A stretch of DNA of 64,000 nt, from assembly GCF_007097395.1 (NCBI RefSeq), contig NZ_VKDC01000019.1:1-64000 (forward strand), in the 5' to 3' direction. Position 1 is the stretch's first letter, and the number at the start of each line of letters is the position of its first letter. Positions 25,192 through 30,736 of this stretch are shown here, one piece after another. The position numbers and the translations under genes are program-made. Below the pieces are notes generated by a model. That model did not search any database. It was not told the origin of the DNA and was given only the letters and a program-made list of their open reading frames with translations. Source of the DNA: Fulvivirga sp. M361 (GTDB taxonomy: Bacteria > Bacteroidota > Bacteroidia > Cytophagales > Cyclobacteriaceae).

Positions 25192-26058
25192 ATGTCATCA
25201 CAAATTAAAACCATTAACAATATACCACTAATAAGCGCACATAGTTCAAGGCCCTTTATTGCAGACATACGCTATGTCAAAGATCACGTGAAGAAGCCAA
25301 TCATTATTTTTATACATGGCTTTAAAGGCTTTAAAGATTGGGGTCATTTTAATCTTATTGCCGACCATGTTGCCAAACAGGGCTTTGTATTTATCAAGCC
25401 GAATTTATCTCATAATGGCACCACTCCTGACCATCCTATGGACTTTGCAGATCTTGAAGCTTTTAGTGAAAATAACTTCTCCATTGAGCTGGATGACCTG
25501 GCAGTACTTATCGACTTTTTATCAGGTGCTCAAAATATCGTGCCAGCGGAAGAGATCAATATGGATCAACTATTCCTGATAGGTCACAGTCGTGGCGGAA
25601 GTATTGCACTGCTCAAAGCATATGAAGATACCCGTGTTAAAAAAGTAGCTGCGTGGGCACCTATACATAATTTATTTCAACGATGGCCTGAGGAATTGGT
25701 AGAGAAGTGGCGCTCCAATGGTACTCATTACATTTTCAATAGCAGGACCGGGCAGGACATGCCTCTTAAATATCAACTGATAGAAGACCTCCAAAAAAAT
25801 AAAGTAAGACTGGATGTGTCCGGAGCAGTTCAACAAATAAATAAGCCTGTACTATTGATACATGGCACAGAAGATGAAACATTACCCTATCAACACACAG
25901 TAGAACTTGCTACAATACAACCTTTGGCAGAATCTTTCATTGTTGAAGGCGCTAACCATGTATTCGGTGGAAAGCATCCTTATGAAAACCCGGAATTACC
26001 AGAGGCTTCATTAAAAGTACTGAACAAAACACTGTCTTTTTTTCAAAAAGGTTTATAA
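25192..26058 (+). CDS. Alpha/beta hydrolase
   Basis: A 288-residue alpha/beta-hydrolase. The oxyanion region FIHGFKGFKDWG follows the third strand, the nucleophile elbow is GHSRGG, and LIHGTEDETLP supplies the likely catalytic Asp. The His is in GANHVFGG near the C-terminus. No signal peptide is visible, so it is probably cytoplasmic. It resembles dienelactone-hydrolase or esterase types, but the substrate cannot be inferred. It is followed 22 bp later by a small secreted protein gene and is divergent from the prenyl synthase. Confidence 0.88.
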   Translation: MSSQIKTINNIPLISAHSSRPFIADIRYVKDHVKKPIIIFIHGFKGFKDWGHFNLIADHVAKQGFVFIKPNLSHNGTTPDHPMDFADLEAFSENNFSIELDDLAVLIDFLSGAQNIVPAEEINMDQLFLIGHSRGGSIALLKAYEDTRVKKVAAWAPIHNLFQRWPEELVEKWRSNGTHYIFNSRTGQDMPLKYQLIEDLQKNKVRLDVSGAVQQINKPVLLIHGTEDETLPYQHTVELATIQPLAESFIVEGANHVFGGKHPYENPELPEASLKVLNKTLSFFQKGL

Positions 26059-26080: not shown

Positions 26081-26479
26081 ATGAAAACGATATTAACTTC
26101 TTTTATGCTGCTGTTAATAAACCTGCCTCTACTAGCACAAAAATCTGCAACAGACCTGGCTCAGCAACAATTAGATGCCTATAACCACCGGGACATCGAA
26201 GCTTTTCTACTGCCCTATAGTGACACCGTTAAGGTGTTTAACTTCCCCGCCGCATTTTTGTACCAGGGAATAGAAGAAATGCGTAAAAGATACAGCCCTA
26301 TGTTTGAAAAGCAGAAGGACCTGCATTGCACATTGGTGAACAGAATGTCTTTGGGCAATATGGTGATCGACCAGGAGAGTGTAATATTTGATAAGACAAA
26401 GCCTCCGGTGGAAGTATTCGCCATTTACAAAGTTGCTGCAAACAAAATACAGGAAGTTTATTTTATGAGGCCGGATTAA
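26081..26479 (+). CDS. Secreted NTF2-like/SnoaL-fold protein
   Basis: A 132-residue protein with an N-terminal signal peptide (ILTSFMLLLINLPLLAQ). The rest is a cone-shaped NTF2-like fold: AYNHRDIEAFLLPYSDTVKVF and YQGIEEMRKRYSPMF are characteristic of the SnoaL/steroid-isomerase type. No catalytic residues can be assigned with confidence. It lies 22 bp after the hydrolase gene and is likely cotranscribed with it. Confidence 0.8.
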   Translation: MKTILTSFMLLLINLPLLAQKSATDLAQQQLDAYNHRDIEAFLLPYSDTVKVFNFPAAFLYQGIEEMRKRYSPMFEKQKDLHCTLVNRMSLGNMVIDQESVIFDKTKPPVEVFAIYKVAANKIQEVYFMRPD

Positions 26480-26640: not shown

Positions 26641-27597
26641 CTACTTAAAGTCGTCCGGGGAAATGATTTTTGCGTTAAGTAATTCGCGCATGACCATTTC
26701 AGTCATATCACTTTTAAAAGCAAATTCATTCCGGATATCAGCTACATAGGCTTTCAGTCTCATTTTAAGGTAGGACTTACGGTCCTTCACCTCATTGAAA
26801 AACAAAACGACAATAGGCTTATTCAGATAAACAAATCGTGAAACCTGGGCGACTTCCATCGCAACATGTCTGGCCTTCTCCGTATCCACCGTAATGGGTA
26901 AATAAATTTCAGCCACCACCTGACAATTCGCTTCTCCGGCATTGGCATTAGAAACAGACTGGTTCATAATCTCACTATTAGGCACACTTACCAATGAGTC
27001 GTCTGCCGTAACGATCCGCGTAGAGCGTAAACCAATTTCCAACACTTCACCATAATGGCTTCCAATTTCTATTTTATCTCCTACTTTAAAAGGCCTGTCG
27101 AACAATATCATTATACCGCCAAAAACGTTTTTTAATACATCCTGAGCGGCAAAGCCTACCGCAATACTCACAGAAGCTGTGACTGCCACTATCGTTTCCA
27201 ATGGTGGATGAAATATCCCGGCGATGACTACAAATAATATGAACACCCATCCCAGAATATTAAAAACAGGAATAATTCCCTTAATGGTGATCCTATACCG
27301 GGTACTTCGTTCAGCAATGGATCCAAGCACAGAGCCAATGAAACGAATGAAAAAATAGCCTATCGTCAAAAAAATAATGGACCAAAATATCTTGCTGAAT
27401 GAAATGACCTCAGAAATAGGCGGCGGTTGCAGATTACGCCTGGCCTTTTCTACAACATCTTCGGAATCTGTTGAAAGCTGCGCTGAATCAGTCACAACTG
27501 CTTTCTCCTCATCTTGTAAGACCACAGTATCTGCTTGTGCAAAGCCCGGCCCTGAAAATAACGTCAACAAGACCAGATATATAAAGCGCTTTTTCAT
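26641..27597 (-). CDS. MscS-family mechanosensitive ion channel
   Basis: A 318-residue MscS-type channel with a cleavable signal peptide (ends GFAQA), a short polar segment, then three membrane helices. The pore-lining helix and following conserved beta domain read SIAVGFAAQDVLKNVFGG and FDRPFKVGDKIEIG; the VPNSEIMNQSVSN motif is typical. Such channels open on hypo-osmotic stress or act in specific ion flux. The start overlaps the stop of the upstream 999-codon P-loop gene by one base (TGATG), so the two proteins are translationally coupled and probably act together. Confidence 0.93.
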   Translation of the reverse strand: MKKRFIYLVLLTLFSGPGFAQADTVVLQDEEKAVVTDSAQLSTDSEDVVEKARRNLQPPPISEVISFSKIFWSIIFLTIGYFFIRFIGSVLGSIAERSTRYRITIKGIIPVFNILGWVFILFVVIAGIFHPPLETIVAVTASVSIAVGFAAQDVLKNVFGGIMILFDRPFKVGDKIEIGSHYGEVLEIGLRSTRIVTADDSLVSVPNSEIMNQSVSNANAGEANCQVVAEIYLPITVDTEKARHVAMEVAQVSRFVYLNKPIVVLFFNEVKDRKSYLKMRLKAYVADIRNEFAFKSDMTEMVMRELLNAKIISPDDFK

Positions 27598-30596
27598 CAG
27601 TGAATAATATTCCTGGATTTAAGTAACGTTACCACCTGACGGTAAAGCAACGGATTGATGCAATAAAAACCATTCTCAAGTACCAGAATTCCATCCTCAT
27701 ACAAGGGATGAAGTACCGTCCTGCTATCATATGAACTTCTGCCGGTAACTTGCACAAAATCATCTTCACTCATTCCGTCATGAAGCAGAAGTTGTGTTAA
27801 TCCATACAACTTATTTGGCGAATAGCTCTTAAGAAACGAAAAATCAATATCTCGCAAGCAGCTGATGGAAATTGTGTTATCGGACGTCTCACTGGTAGAA
27901 CGTAGCCAATACAATAACGCCAGACTGGCATTCCCTTTGGCAATTTTATTCAAATCATTAAAGTACTGTTTCTGCAATAGTTCTTGTCGGGCCTCCTCAG
28001 ACAGCTTCTTAAATTTCTTACTATTCATATTTATACCGGAAGGCTCGAATACCATGTTGTAACCACTGACTTTATGTCTTCTTTTGATCATATCAACCAT
28101 TTGTTCATTATCAAATTCGTCCAGCTTCACCACATAACCGAAGTGATCGGATAGACCCAGTGTTTTATCCAGGTAGTCCCAGGCATATTGCGTACATCCT
28201 ACGATCCAAAACACATTCTTACTGGTAAGCGAAATCATCCGGATCAATTGTTTCAAGCCCTCAAACCCATGCACCTTTTTTAGGTAAAGTCGTTGAATAT
28301 TTTCTACGATGATCACCCTTTTAATTCCCTGATTAAGGTAGTTGACAATATCCGCCGAACTCACAAACTTTTGATCCAGGGACTTTGAAAAAAATGCCAC
28401 TATCTCATTCGGTCTTAAGACCCTCGATGCGGGTGATATCCTGATCACTTCTTTCGAACTGGCCAGTTCCTTTAAATAGAAATTGAATAGTGTAGTAAGC
28501 CCACTTCCCTTTTCACCTACAACGACTGAAGCTGCAAAACGCTTTTTCATCCAGTTATTATAAGCCGTTGTTAATTGTCGTATTTCTTTAGGACGGGTCT
28601 GATAAAAATTTTCGTCCTCTAACGGCTGCGCCCTGAAAAGTCGTTGATAAACAAAAGGCAGTTTATTAATTGAATGTTCCGTTTCAGCCAGAAAATCTGC
28701 CAACTCTGTAGAAATAGCTTCTGACTCAGTAGAAATGCCATAACGTTTAAATACCTGATGAACAAATTCAGTTGTTTTCCGGTAACGTATCCTACTCAAA
28801 CGGGCTACCGTGGGAAATATATTTCGAATGCCTTCAAGAACACGGTCCCGTAAAGCCCTGCTTTGCTCTATCGCCTTTGCACGCGCAATACGAACACGTA
28901 TTTCAAAGATGTTTTCGTTGTTCGTGAATTTTACCAGACTCTTATTGAACAGTTCTACTGCGTTGTAGAGATCTTCGCCCACCCCTTGTTGCATTTTTCG
29001 GAAGCTCTCGCGAATCTCTTCTAATTTCTGCAGCGTCCTTTGCAGTCCTTCAAAGGCTATTTTACGAGGGTCATCTTTGCTGTCTTTTTCTTCAAACAGC
29101 GACAATGCAGAAGCCAAATTAAATTCCGCAATCTTATCCAGTTCAGTTAACTGGTGAAGTATTTCACTAATTTGAGTCGTAGTTTTTACCTTCACATTTC
29201 TGGCCACTTTCTGAAACTGCGGCCACGATTCAAAATTGATCAGCTCATAAGGTGAGATCGTATTCACCGAAGACGAACGCAACGGCATATTGTATTCAAA
29301 TTTATTAACTACGGCCCTATTTTCGCTAATGGAGTTAATACGATGGTCCATTCGCGCTTCCACTTCATTAACAATATCCGGGATATCCTGTGACAAAATG
29401 AGTTCACCAATCTCTTCTGCCGTTTTGCCCAGATCACCCTTTAGAAGACTTTGATGCTCCGCTATTAATACTGCCTGCAGGTTTTCTGCATTTGTCTGAT
29501 TTATACCATTCACATGCTTCTGTACCAACACATTCAGGCGATCGAATTCCGGTATAATAACCCCTTGAATCCGCTCTCTCAGTTTTCGATCAGAAACATA
29601 AAATTGTGCCAGTGCAGCATATATAATGGAATATAACTCTATATCTATCTCCCAATCATCTGACATTACTCTTAACGTGTTATGCCATCCCTTTGTAAGC
29701 ACATCATATTTTCTAATAACACGTTGTCGTTTTTTCTTCAGATTACGTGGATTAAAGCGATTGTTGGTCAGTTCAATAGTACCTGCCTTGACGTATGCCC
29801 CGGCATAGTCGCTAAAGAGGGTTTCAAATACATTTCTTACCGCTATCCGGAATTCCTCTTTTTTCCGGGCTAAGTCGACCTTGAGTTGATCAAAACGTGA
29901 AACCCAATCCGCCTGGAATTGGAATTTTTTCTCTTCTGATATACATTGATCAAAGGCATGGTCTATGATTTCATCTAATTTCCATACTCCTTTTGAAACA
30001 TCGCAAAGGGATAAATAGTAATTGGAAAGTTGTGGCACCAGCCGATTAAATAGTTCCTCTTCAAGATAAAATCGTGACAAGCGTCGGAAGTATATTTTGT
30101 GATACCAGGGTTTGAGTGGTTTAACCGGTTTTTTAAATAACCTCCTGAATGAATTGGTCATTTTCTCGGGCCACTTGGAAATACTATAAAACAATCGTTT
30201 AAACCATTTCCCTAGTTTTATAGCCTTCCCGTCACTTTGCTGGCATTCAAACCGCTCCATATCCTGAGCACGACGCAGATGCATGTCAAAGGTCTGTACA
30301 TAGTCATGCAGCGCTTTGCTAAAAGGAGCAAACTCTTCATGAAGTGTCCTGACTTCGAAAGCTTTAAAATAGCCCCCTACCGACTTTAGCCATTCCGACT
30401 TGGCCATGGCTATATAGCGAAGTTCCTTAGCCACTTCATTTTGCTGTTGTTGCAGCTTTTTAAGCTTACCAAGGTATTGAAAGTATTGGTCCAGGAAAGA
30501 GGCATAAGCATCAAACCGGGCATCCATTGCGGTCAGAAAATGTGACTCCAGCATAGAGCCTACCTGCTGCTTATGATTTTCTAATTCTTCGGGCAT
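27597..30596 (-). CDS. Large P-loop (AAA/STAND-like) protein coupled to an MscS channel
   Basis: A 999-residue protein with no recognised family. Residues 1-650 are mostly alpha-helical and rich in charged residues with coiled-coil stretches; there is no signal peptide or clear membrane helix. A P-loop-like motif VVGEKGSGLTTLF lies near 690-700, but the usual Walker A lysine is Leu (GxxGxGLT). A Walker B-like strand RVIIVENIQRLY is near 760 and also lacks the usual DE pair. A sensor-like strand, FWIVGCTQYAWDYL, lies near 800. The last 80 residues look like a winged helix. The arrangement recalls STAND/Orc-like regulators. It is the first gene of a two-gene unit with the MscS gene. Confidence 0.8.
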   Translation of the reverse strand: MPEELENHKQQVGSMLESHFLTAMDARFDAYASFLDQYFQYLGKLKKLQQQQNEVAKELRYIAMAKSEWLKSVGGYFKAFEVRTLHEEFAPFSKALHDYVQTFDMHLRRAQDMERFECQQSDGKAIKLGKWFKRLFYSISKWPEKMTNSFRRLFKKPVKPLKPWYHKIYFRRLSRFYLEEELFNRLVPQLSNYYLSLCDVSKGVWKLDEIIDHAFDQCISEEKKFQFQADWVSRFDQLKVDLARKKEEFRIAVRNVFETLFSDYAGAYVKAGTIELTNNRFNPRNLKKKRQRVIRKYDVLTKGWHNTLRVMSDDWEIDIELYSIIYAALAQFYVSDRKLRERIQGVIIPEFDRLNVLVQKHVNGINQTNAENLQAVLIAEHQSLLKGDLGKTAEEIGELILSQDIPDIVNEVEARMDHRINSISENRAVVNKFEYNMPLRSSSVNTISPYELINFESWPQFQKVARNVKVKTTTQISEILHQLTELDKIAEFNLASALSLFEEKDSKDDPRKIAFEGLQRTLQKLEEIRESFRKMQQGVGEDLYNAVELFNKSLVKFTNNENIFEIRVRIARAKAIEQSRALRDRVLEGIRNIFPTVARLSRIRYRKTTEFVHQVFKRYGISTESEAISTELADFLAETEHSINKLPFVYQRLFRAQPLEDENFYQTRPKEIRQLTTAYNNWMKKRFAASVVVGEKGSGLTTLFNFYLKELASSKEVIRISPASRVLRPNEIVAFFSKSLDQKFVSSADIVNYLNQGIKRVIIVENIQRLYLKKVHGFEGLKQLIRMISLTSKNVFWIVGCTQYAWDYLDKTLGLSDHFGYVVKLDEFDNEQMVDMIKRRHKVSGYNMVFEPSGINMNSKKFKKLSEEARQELLQKQYFNDLNKIAKGNASLALLYWLRSTSETSDNTISISCLRDIDFSFLKSYSPNKLYGLTQLLLHDGMSEDDFVQVTGRSSYDSRTVLHPLYEDGILVLENGFYCINPLLYRQVVTLLKSRNIIH

Positions 30597-30703: not shown

Positions 30704-30736
30704 CATAAAAAAAGTCGAAGCGCAAGCTCCGACTTT
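30704..30736 (-). terminator. Terminator downstream of the DUF2911 gene
   Basis: An 11-bp stem with one mismatch (AAAGTCGAAGC at 30711-30721 with GCTCCGACTTT at 30726-30736) and a GCAA loop. On the minus strand it is followed by TTTTAT. It lies 27 bp beyond the stop of the gene at 30763. Confidence 0.75.

Follow-up and report, generated by a model that had tools for sequence, protein, structure and literature searches.

Textbooks present MscS as a tension valve, and we know of no dedicated giant AAA+ partner or regulatory subunit of MscS. Cytoplasmic regulators are familiar elsewhere in ion transport: TrkA/KTN (RCK) proteins bind nucleotide and are paired with the Trk and Kef K+ systems, and, as an analogy only, WNK kinases regulate the eukaryotic cation-chloride cotransporters in cell-volume control. 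Here we describe a gene pair in a 64,000-nucleotide stretch of Fulvivirga sp. M361 (contig NZ_VKDC01000019.1, positions 1 to 64,000; hereafter the window), in which a protein with helical, AAA+ and winged-helix parts, called BIG, is encoded directly ahead of an MscS-family channel. We consider it probable, with some reserve, that BIG is an AAA+ cytoplasmic regulatory subunit of an MscS ion-release system serving osmotic or ion homeostasis, and that it docks on the C-terminal domain of the channel. BIG is like TrkA/KTN in concept but has an AAA+, not a Rossmann, fold, and TrkA is itself a separate gene in some BIG operons.

The channel shares its beta-domain with MscS, MscK, YnaI and MscM, and the profile of the BIG-linked proteins aligns to their solved chains. 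It differs from the MscS family at large in that the linked group adjoins BIG in every locus examined and has a well conserved C-terminal domain. BIG residues 644-996 have the predicted fold of Orc1/Cdc6, TnsC and STAND ATPases, with AAA+ alpha/beta core, lid and winged helix all present, but a 620-residue helical domain stands in front, the company is that of channels and transporters, and the window protein has lost its Walker A lysine. A stalk-like bundle recalls bacterial dynamin-like proteins, a likeness at the noise level for helical bundles; the nucleotide domain of BIG is AAA+, with no GTPase domain. Pfam gave only sub-threshold AAA matches on BIG (AAA_22, 26.2 bits against a cut-off of 27), and neither NCBIfam nor PADLOC-DB 2.0.0 holds a family for it at E <= 1. 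No description of BIG, or of an MscS-AAA+ or transporter-AAA+ system, was found in the open-licence literature, covered mostly through the best-ranked matches. By word search the STAND surveys PMC7159879 and PMC8195603 do not mention MscS or mechanosensitive, and the accessible parts of PMC3924187 and PMC4301019 hold nothing on the transporter-BIG fusions described below. Whether the family had already been described, a question posed in the preliminary description of the window, is thus answered in the negative for these sources. The folds of the BIG system are known, but we can place its combination of regulator and transporter under no known kind.

BIG (999 residues) occupies 27597..30596 and the channel (318 residues) 26641..27597, both on the minus strand. 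The preliminary description had read a one-base overlap of stop and start codons and had called the small gene MscS, and both readings hold. The two open reading frames (ORFs) share the A at base 27597 within TGATG (27595..27599, minus strand), and the small protein matches PF00924 (MS_channel_2nd) at 4.7e-23, with 81.5 bits against a cut-off of 20.2. Its transmembrane part and pore helix are covered by profile A2, which has the window protein as its first row, matches solved MscS, MscK and YnaI chains, and aligns 7dlu_A (3.1e-21) through the transmembrane and beta regions. The beta-domain spans residues 153-219 (26941..27141, minus strand), followed by a C-terminal cytoplasmic alpha/beta domain, residues 220-305 (26683..26940, minus strand), which we propose as the docking site of BIG from its conservation and from the remnant kept as partner of the K-Cl cotransporter (KCC) fusions.

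The pairing recurs wherever BIG could be followed. The best 80 of 101 relatives in a scan of named genomes were examined; there the closest rows are Fulvivirga species, joined by Polaribacter, Aquimarina and Reichenbachiella and by metagenome-assembled genome (MAG) contigs labelled Ignavibacteria, KSB1, Nitrospirota, Gemmatimonadetes and Desulfatitalea. A phylum sample gave BIG matches in 72 of 395 genomes, from which 49 loci besides the window locus were examined, and among 98 relatives 28 genomes match, 20 of them with a near full-length BIG, including 12 in the genus (15 genus genomes searched). Two of the genome collections overlap (L031 and L089, for example). Once near-identical rows (>95%) and those with too little of the C-terminal part had been dropped, 146 of 160 rows were left, the window included; this filtering is why the contig-end loci L155 and L165 stand outside the 146. 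Overall, BIG relatives belong mainly to Bacteroidota and Ignavibacteria, with single contigs from other phyla. A contig labelled Rickettsiales (L141) carries a BIG 71% identical to that of Marinoscillum over the C-terminal part and is possibly a misbinned MAG contig.

Counting as adjacent an MscS-type gene at most 200 bp downstream or 400 bp upstream of BIG, we find one beside BIG in all 145 non-redundant relatives with enough flanking sequence. It lies downstream in 132 of the 146 loci (within 20 bp in 123 of these), upstream in nine and, in four, was seen by six-frame search only; in the remaining one it is hidden by a contig end. As background, MscS made up 16 of 873 other genes at the named-genome loci; the two remaining sets gave 3 of 338 and 5 of 270. 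Because the searches were made with BIG and not with MscS, the pairing was not imposed by them, and it is far beyond chance. The preliminary description had asked whether homologues occur without an MscS neighbour, and 0 of 145 do; the idea that the pair is an orphan curiosity was rejected on the same count. At L048:6984-8023 two overlapping ORFs together make up the MscS partner, which may reflect a frameshift or an error of assembly.

The two proteins also appear to have been inherited together. Over 121 pairs the BIG and MscS distances correlate with r 0.836, against a maximum of 0.12 in 1000 shuffles. The Fulvivirga sp. M361 genome has seven MscS-type matches. In an MscS tree of 93 rows, which includes 45 linked partners (random thinning) and 30 unlinked channels from five genomes only, the linked/unlinked label needs two changes, with several long branches, and the approximately unbiased test does not reject one clade of BIG-MscS partners (p-AU 0.677); the linked channels thus cluster separately from the remaining MscS of their genomes. 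The unlinked set was drawn from 36 loci, less five linked ones and L195, which gave no row. Beyond residue 219, 20 positions of the channel are conserved in at least 95% of the 121 linked MscS, and the contrast with unlinked MscS is only partly separable from overall divergence. With no relative found to lack the neighbour, no earlier description of the family in the sources covered and an AAA+ fold predicted for BIG, a conserved functional partnership of BIG and MscS is supported.

An AlphaFold2 (AF2) model of BIG (mean predicted local distance difference test score, pLDDT, 87.7) shows long helices at the N-terminus, then a P-loop domain of alpha/beta type and, towards the C-terminus, elements of a winged helix. 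The helical domain, residues 1-620 (28737..30596, minus strand), has helices of up to 84 residues (pLDDT 93.8, predicted TM-score, pTM, 0.85) and is common to the KCC and Na+/H+ exchanger fusions, where hhalign finds homology at 99.1% over 542 and 592 columns (the reversed profiles used as controls gave 0.6% and 8.5%). It gave no PDB match at E <= 0.001 in Foldseek, and its 50 VIA rows comprise 8 designed proteins, 10 dynamin or Mx chains and a mixed remainder, so that the domain may still have a known fold. Within it, a basic amphipathic stretch, residues 127-165 (30102..30218, minus strand; net +13 within 120-180), is by hydrophobic moment and charge a candidate membrane contact and may touch the membrane. 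The AAA+ core covers residues 644-919 (27840..28667, minus strand) and its matches include 2qen and Avs4 (8dgf_A, E 1.2e-4). A winged helix follows at residues 927-980 (27657..27818, minus strand), placed by the predicted secondary structure and by Orc/Cdc6 and TnsC chains that align into the range; past it the model has no further domain and no C-terminal target-binding repeat, the chain ending at residue 999. In a viral structure library the named matches are mostly AAA+ ATPases and clamp loaders, and a profile search of PDB sequences returned helical look-alikes (best 3s84, 1.4e-4) and short P-loop matches, with no informative solved relative.

This anatomy agrees with the helical N-terminus, P-loop and winged-helix-like C-terminus read earlier from the letters, and an AAA+ fold is predicted where the absence of a P-loop fold would have told against that reading. 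The details of the nucleotide site are likewise as first described: Walker A is the degenerate GEKGSGLT, residues 694-701 (28494..28517, minus strand), with Leu700 at the lysine position, and the Walker B-like VIIVEN, residues 761-766 (28299..28316, minus strand), has E765, nearly invariant in A3, followed by N766 and so no second acid. Across the family the acid position is E or D in 146 of 160 rows. The emphasis formerly laid on the degenerate Walker A suits the window and some lineages and fails as a hallmark of the family, since among 146 relatives the position holds K in 57, R in 11 and another residue in 78. On the tree of the 146 rows, K or R and other residues interchange at least eight times, and K is present in L177 and in every one of the KCC (11) and Na+/H+ exchanger (three) fusions. 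The proposal that a lost Walker lysine defines the system was rejected on these counts. Nucleotide hydrolysis by the window BIG is doubtful on its motifs; as the lysine is lost in this lineage, BIG here is probably a binding or conformational switch that does not hydrolyse. Relatives with GEKGSGK[ST], among them the Aquimarina muelleri protein (L100, GEKGSGKT), may hydrolyse ATP. Since 78 of 146 have neither K nor R and retain the fold, hydrolysis is probably dispensable in many MscS-paired forms.

In some relatives the BIG module is joined directly to a transporter. The same Fulvivirga genome encodes, besides the window pair, a 1691-residue fusion of a K-Cl cotransporter with a BIG module (G000:C94, L050), whose N-terminal part matches TIGR00930 at 2.1e-109; its 367 bits fall short of the curated cut-off, 953. 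Such fusions, with a BIG module of about 1000 residues, were found at 11 loci by a hidden Markov model (HMM) built from nine of them. Their KCC identity was checked with TIGR00930 in L050 and L184 and with PF00324 in L050, L054, L057 and L185, and PF03522 (SLC12) is above cut-off in L185. They thus resemble SLC12 KCC/NKCC proteins in the N-terminal part (TIGR00930, PF03522) and differ in carrying a BIG module as C-terminal tail. Three further fusions of about 1500 residues join the module to a Na+/H+ exchanger (PF00999 in L169 and L170; L171 through similarity, 3.6e-63) and stand in runs with MscS, TrkH and TrkA. Multi-helix membrane proteins of 414-422 residues precede the exchanger-BIG fusion at L169:8688-9956 and L171:2727-3971; they have no Pfam match, and the L169 copy is weakly similar to exchangers. 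At L177, beside TrkA, TrkH and MscS, a BIG module follows a membrane part of about ten predicted helices with no family match.

The partners of the KCC fusions are reduced. Downstream of the 11 fusions stands a mini-MscS of 235-250 residues in five cases and a soluble ORF of 97-123 residues in six. It is the C-terminal domain of the mini-MscS that the soluble ORFs match (hhalign 95.4%, against at most 0.3% for seven unrelated profiles and 0.1% for a reversed control), and the mini-MscS match full MscS (98.6%). An HMM of the soluble ORFs matched 11 of 1796 proteins, namely seven of its own training rows and four mini-MscS. Some KCC systems, then, have as partner no more than a soluble MscS-like C-terminal domain. 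The cytoplasmic domain seems to be the element shared by all partners, which suggests that the docking site lies there.

Neighbouring genes give the pair an osmotic setting. Gene runs were labelled by phmmer at 1e-8, seeds counted, for named families only, defence genes not among them; the exchanger label of L171 in the run count is a match to its own seed, with separate support from its similarity to L169/L170 (3.6e-63). The fullest run, at L105, reads KCC, a 253-residue gene, TrkA, TrkH, Na+/H+ exchanger, BIG (unfused), MscS, RimB and RimK, and L044 and L110 have the TrkA-to-RimK part of this order. Over 106 gene runs we count RimK in 15, RimB in 15, AstE in 12, CorA in 11, TrkA in eight, TrkH in seven, the exchanger in six and KCC in three; among 866 genes outside the runs there are one RimK, two exchangers, two KCC and seven CorA, and TrkH, TrkA, RimB and AstE are absent. 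RimB-RimK-AstE lies directly upstream of BIG at 12 loci, ten of them from the window's genus. A CorA-type gene comes after BIG-MscS in L113, L114, L126, L128, L132, L106, L107, L115 and L122, in some with a second MscS between, and a Bacteroides-labelled MAG (L167:987-11263) has an unfused KCC, two genes, an MS_channel_1st_1 protein (501 residues), BIG and MscS in a row. In Pseudomonas, Rlo, kin of RimB, is needed under hypoosmotic stress (PMC12239564), and in P. fluorescens RimK adds and RimB removes polyglutamate (PMC7343187). The RimABK/Rlo systems thus resemble ours in the RimB- and RimK-like genes that adjoin BIG-MscS in 15 of 106 runs and in the tie of Rlo to hypoosmotic stress; they differ in that the rim and rlo operons, so far as the accessible parts of these two papers describe them, contain neither BIG nor MscS. 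We place the unit in an osmotic context because of the transporters (KCC, Na+/H+ exchanger, Trk, MscS) together with this hypoosmotic link and the tie to RimK/RimB.

Around the window pair itself, a terminator-like hairpin with an 11-bp stem and a T run lies 5' of BIG (30711..30736, minus strand). It has the longest stem of the six sites found by the hairpin scan, against 4.0 expected (sd 2.1). As it falls between the upstream gene and BIG, BIG-MscS is probably its own transcription unit; a promoter scan showed no excess, with 14 sites against 12.3 in shuffles. A homologue of the window's upstream 185-residue gene adjoins the block in all ten genus-type loci L031-L040. Two of these (L032:2213-6316 and L033:2439-6559) have an extra MscS gene (290 residues) with genes of 366 and 530 residues, close to homologues of the window genes at 25192-26058 and 26081-26479; the window lacks these three genes there.

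The mechanism that we favour would work as follows. The long-helix domain of BIG, together with its AAA+/winged-helix core, would act as a switch. Docked on the cytoplasmic C-terminal domain of the MscS channel whose gene overlaps its own, this switch would determine when the channel releases K+ and solutes. MscS would then become a regulated channel for osmotic or ion homeostasis and not a passive valve. Turgor, ionic strength or nucleotide are candidate signals, and in the window lineage the AAA+ domain would act as a binding or conformational switch that does not hydrolyse. In relatives the same switch would be tied to other cation transporters, either as a fusion partner (K-Cl cotransporter, Na+/H+ exchanger) or within operons (TrkA/TrkH, KCC, Na+/H+ exchanger). 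What we infer from genomes and predicted structures is the physical contact, the control of gating with its direction, and the nature of the signal. In the preliminary description the large protein had been proposed to gate or localise the channel and perhaps to sense a ligand with its helical part; the genomes support the partnership, and these roles are putative.

Several observations weigh against this mechanism. Shared operon descent also yields correlated distances, so that the BIG and MscS trees support linkage, not contact, and conservation of the C-terminal domain overlaps between linked and unlinked MscS at matched divergence, in small unlinked samples. Compared directly with full-length MscS, the soluble ORFs of the KCC branch reach only 0.1% in hhalign; they match the mini-MscS only, and their tie to full channels is transitive. 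Most of the 106 runs have none of the other transporters sought. The window locus lacks RimB-RimK-AstE, and in the same genome that trio adjoins the KCC fusion: at L050:5067-12888 the fusion and its 111-residue soluble partner are followed by the convergent trio. L177 (6062-10459), once a candidate Na+/H+ exchanger fusion, was rejected as such, its membrane part having no match to Na+/H+ exchangers. Finally, short BIG forms at L088:1537-2778 (413 residues) and L188:7258-8457 (399 residues) consist of AAA+ and winged helix only and still stand directly before MscS, which in this one genus makes the helical domain dispensable in places. Further frames of similarly short length (about 400 residues) occur in the same genus code as these two.

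Other explanations would account for part of these data. BIG could be a scaffold and not a gate: as a pseudo-ATPase it would assemble or position the channel, and in relatives the transporters, at the membrane through its stalk-like helices and basic stretch, while opening is not directly controlled; we regard this as unlikely, though as the strongest of the rivals. It is improbable that BIG and MscS are merely co-expressed, each with its own target under osmotic stress. Translational coupling is common in operons, but adjacency at 145 of 145 loci over several phyla, the occurrence of both gene orders and a partner that in some KCC systems has dwindled to a single soluble domain are hard to explain if BIG and MscS make no contact. 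The Rim genes suggest yet another role, in which the unit serves RimK/RimB polyglutamate metabolism, BIG senses polyglutamate or glutamate and MscS releases glutamate with K+. The enrichment of RimB and RimK in the runs over the outside genes speaks for this, as does the addition and removal of polyglutamate by RimK and RimB in P. fluorescens (PMC7343187); but RimK is absent from 91 of 106 runs, the window's included, and the words osmotic and potassium are not found in that paper. We give this a slightly smaller chance still than mere co-expression.

The membership of the AAA+ core in a class that includes STAND proteins (2qen; Avs4) also raises the possibility of a defence or cell-death system, with BIG as a STAND-type sensor that opens the MscS pore upon phage infection. 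However, BIG has no PADLOC match, the gene is present in 12 of the 15 genus genomes searched with the upstream 185-residue homologue at its side in ten of ten loci, and the model ends at the winged helix. Trk, Na+/H+ exchanger, KCC, CorA and RimK accompany the pair in some runs, in counts that cover the named families and not defence genes. A defence system was rejected on the PADLOC result, the genus-wide retention with surroundings and the transporter company in some runs, and we hold it to be very improbable, the least likely of these alternatives.

Beyond the regulatory-subunit reading of the window pair, a wider and more tentative proposal, which we think somewhat likelier to be wrong than right, is that one AAA+ module is a general osmotic and ion controller of bacteria. 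Either fused to transporters or docked on the cytoplasmic domains of MscS-type proteins, it would co-ordinate K+ release (MscS), KCl export (KCC), Na+/H+ exchange and Trk uptake, as a counterpart of regulated cell-volume control in eukaryotes. Its P-loop would have switched repeatedly between intact and dead, and some KCC systems would have lost the MscS pore and kept only the cytoplasmic domain as an adaptor. The family offers a natural series for study: P-loops intact or dead, the helical domain present or missing, and as partner a full channel, a mini-MscS or a soluble MscS domain. It also puts forward a testable claim on how K+ release and uptake are co-ordinated. If true, many bacteria would control osmotic ion flux through an unstudied layer, a widespread, co-inherited AAA+ partner of MscS that is elsewhere fused to K-Cl cotransporters and Na+/H+ exchangers.

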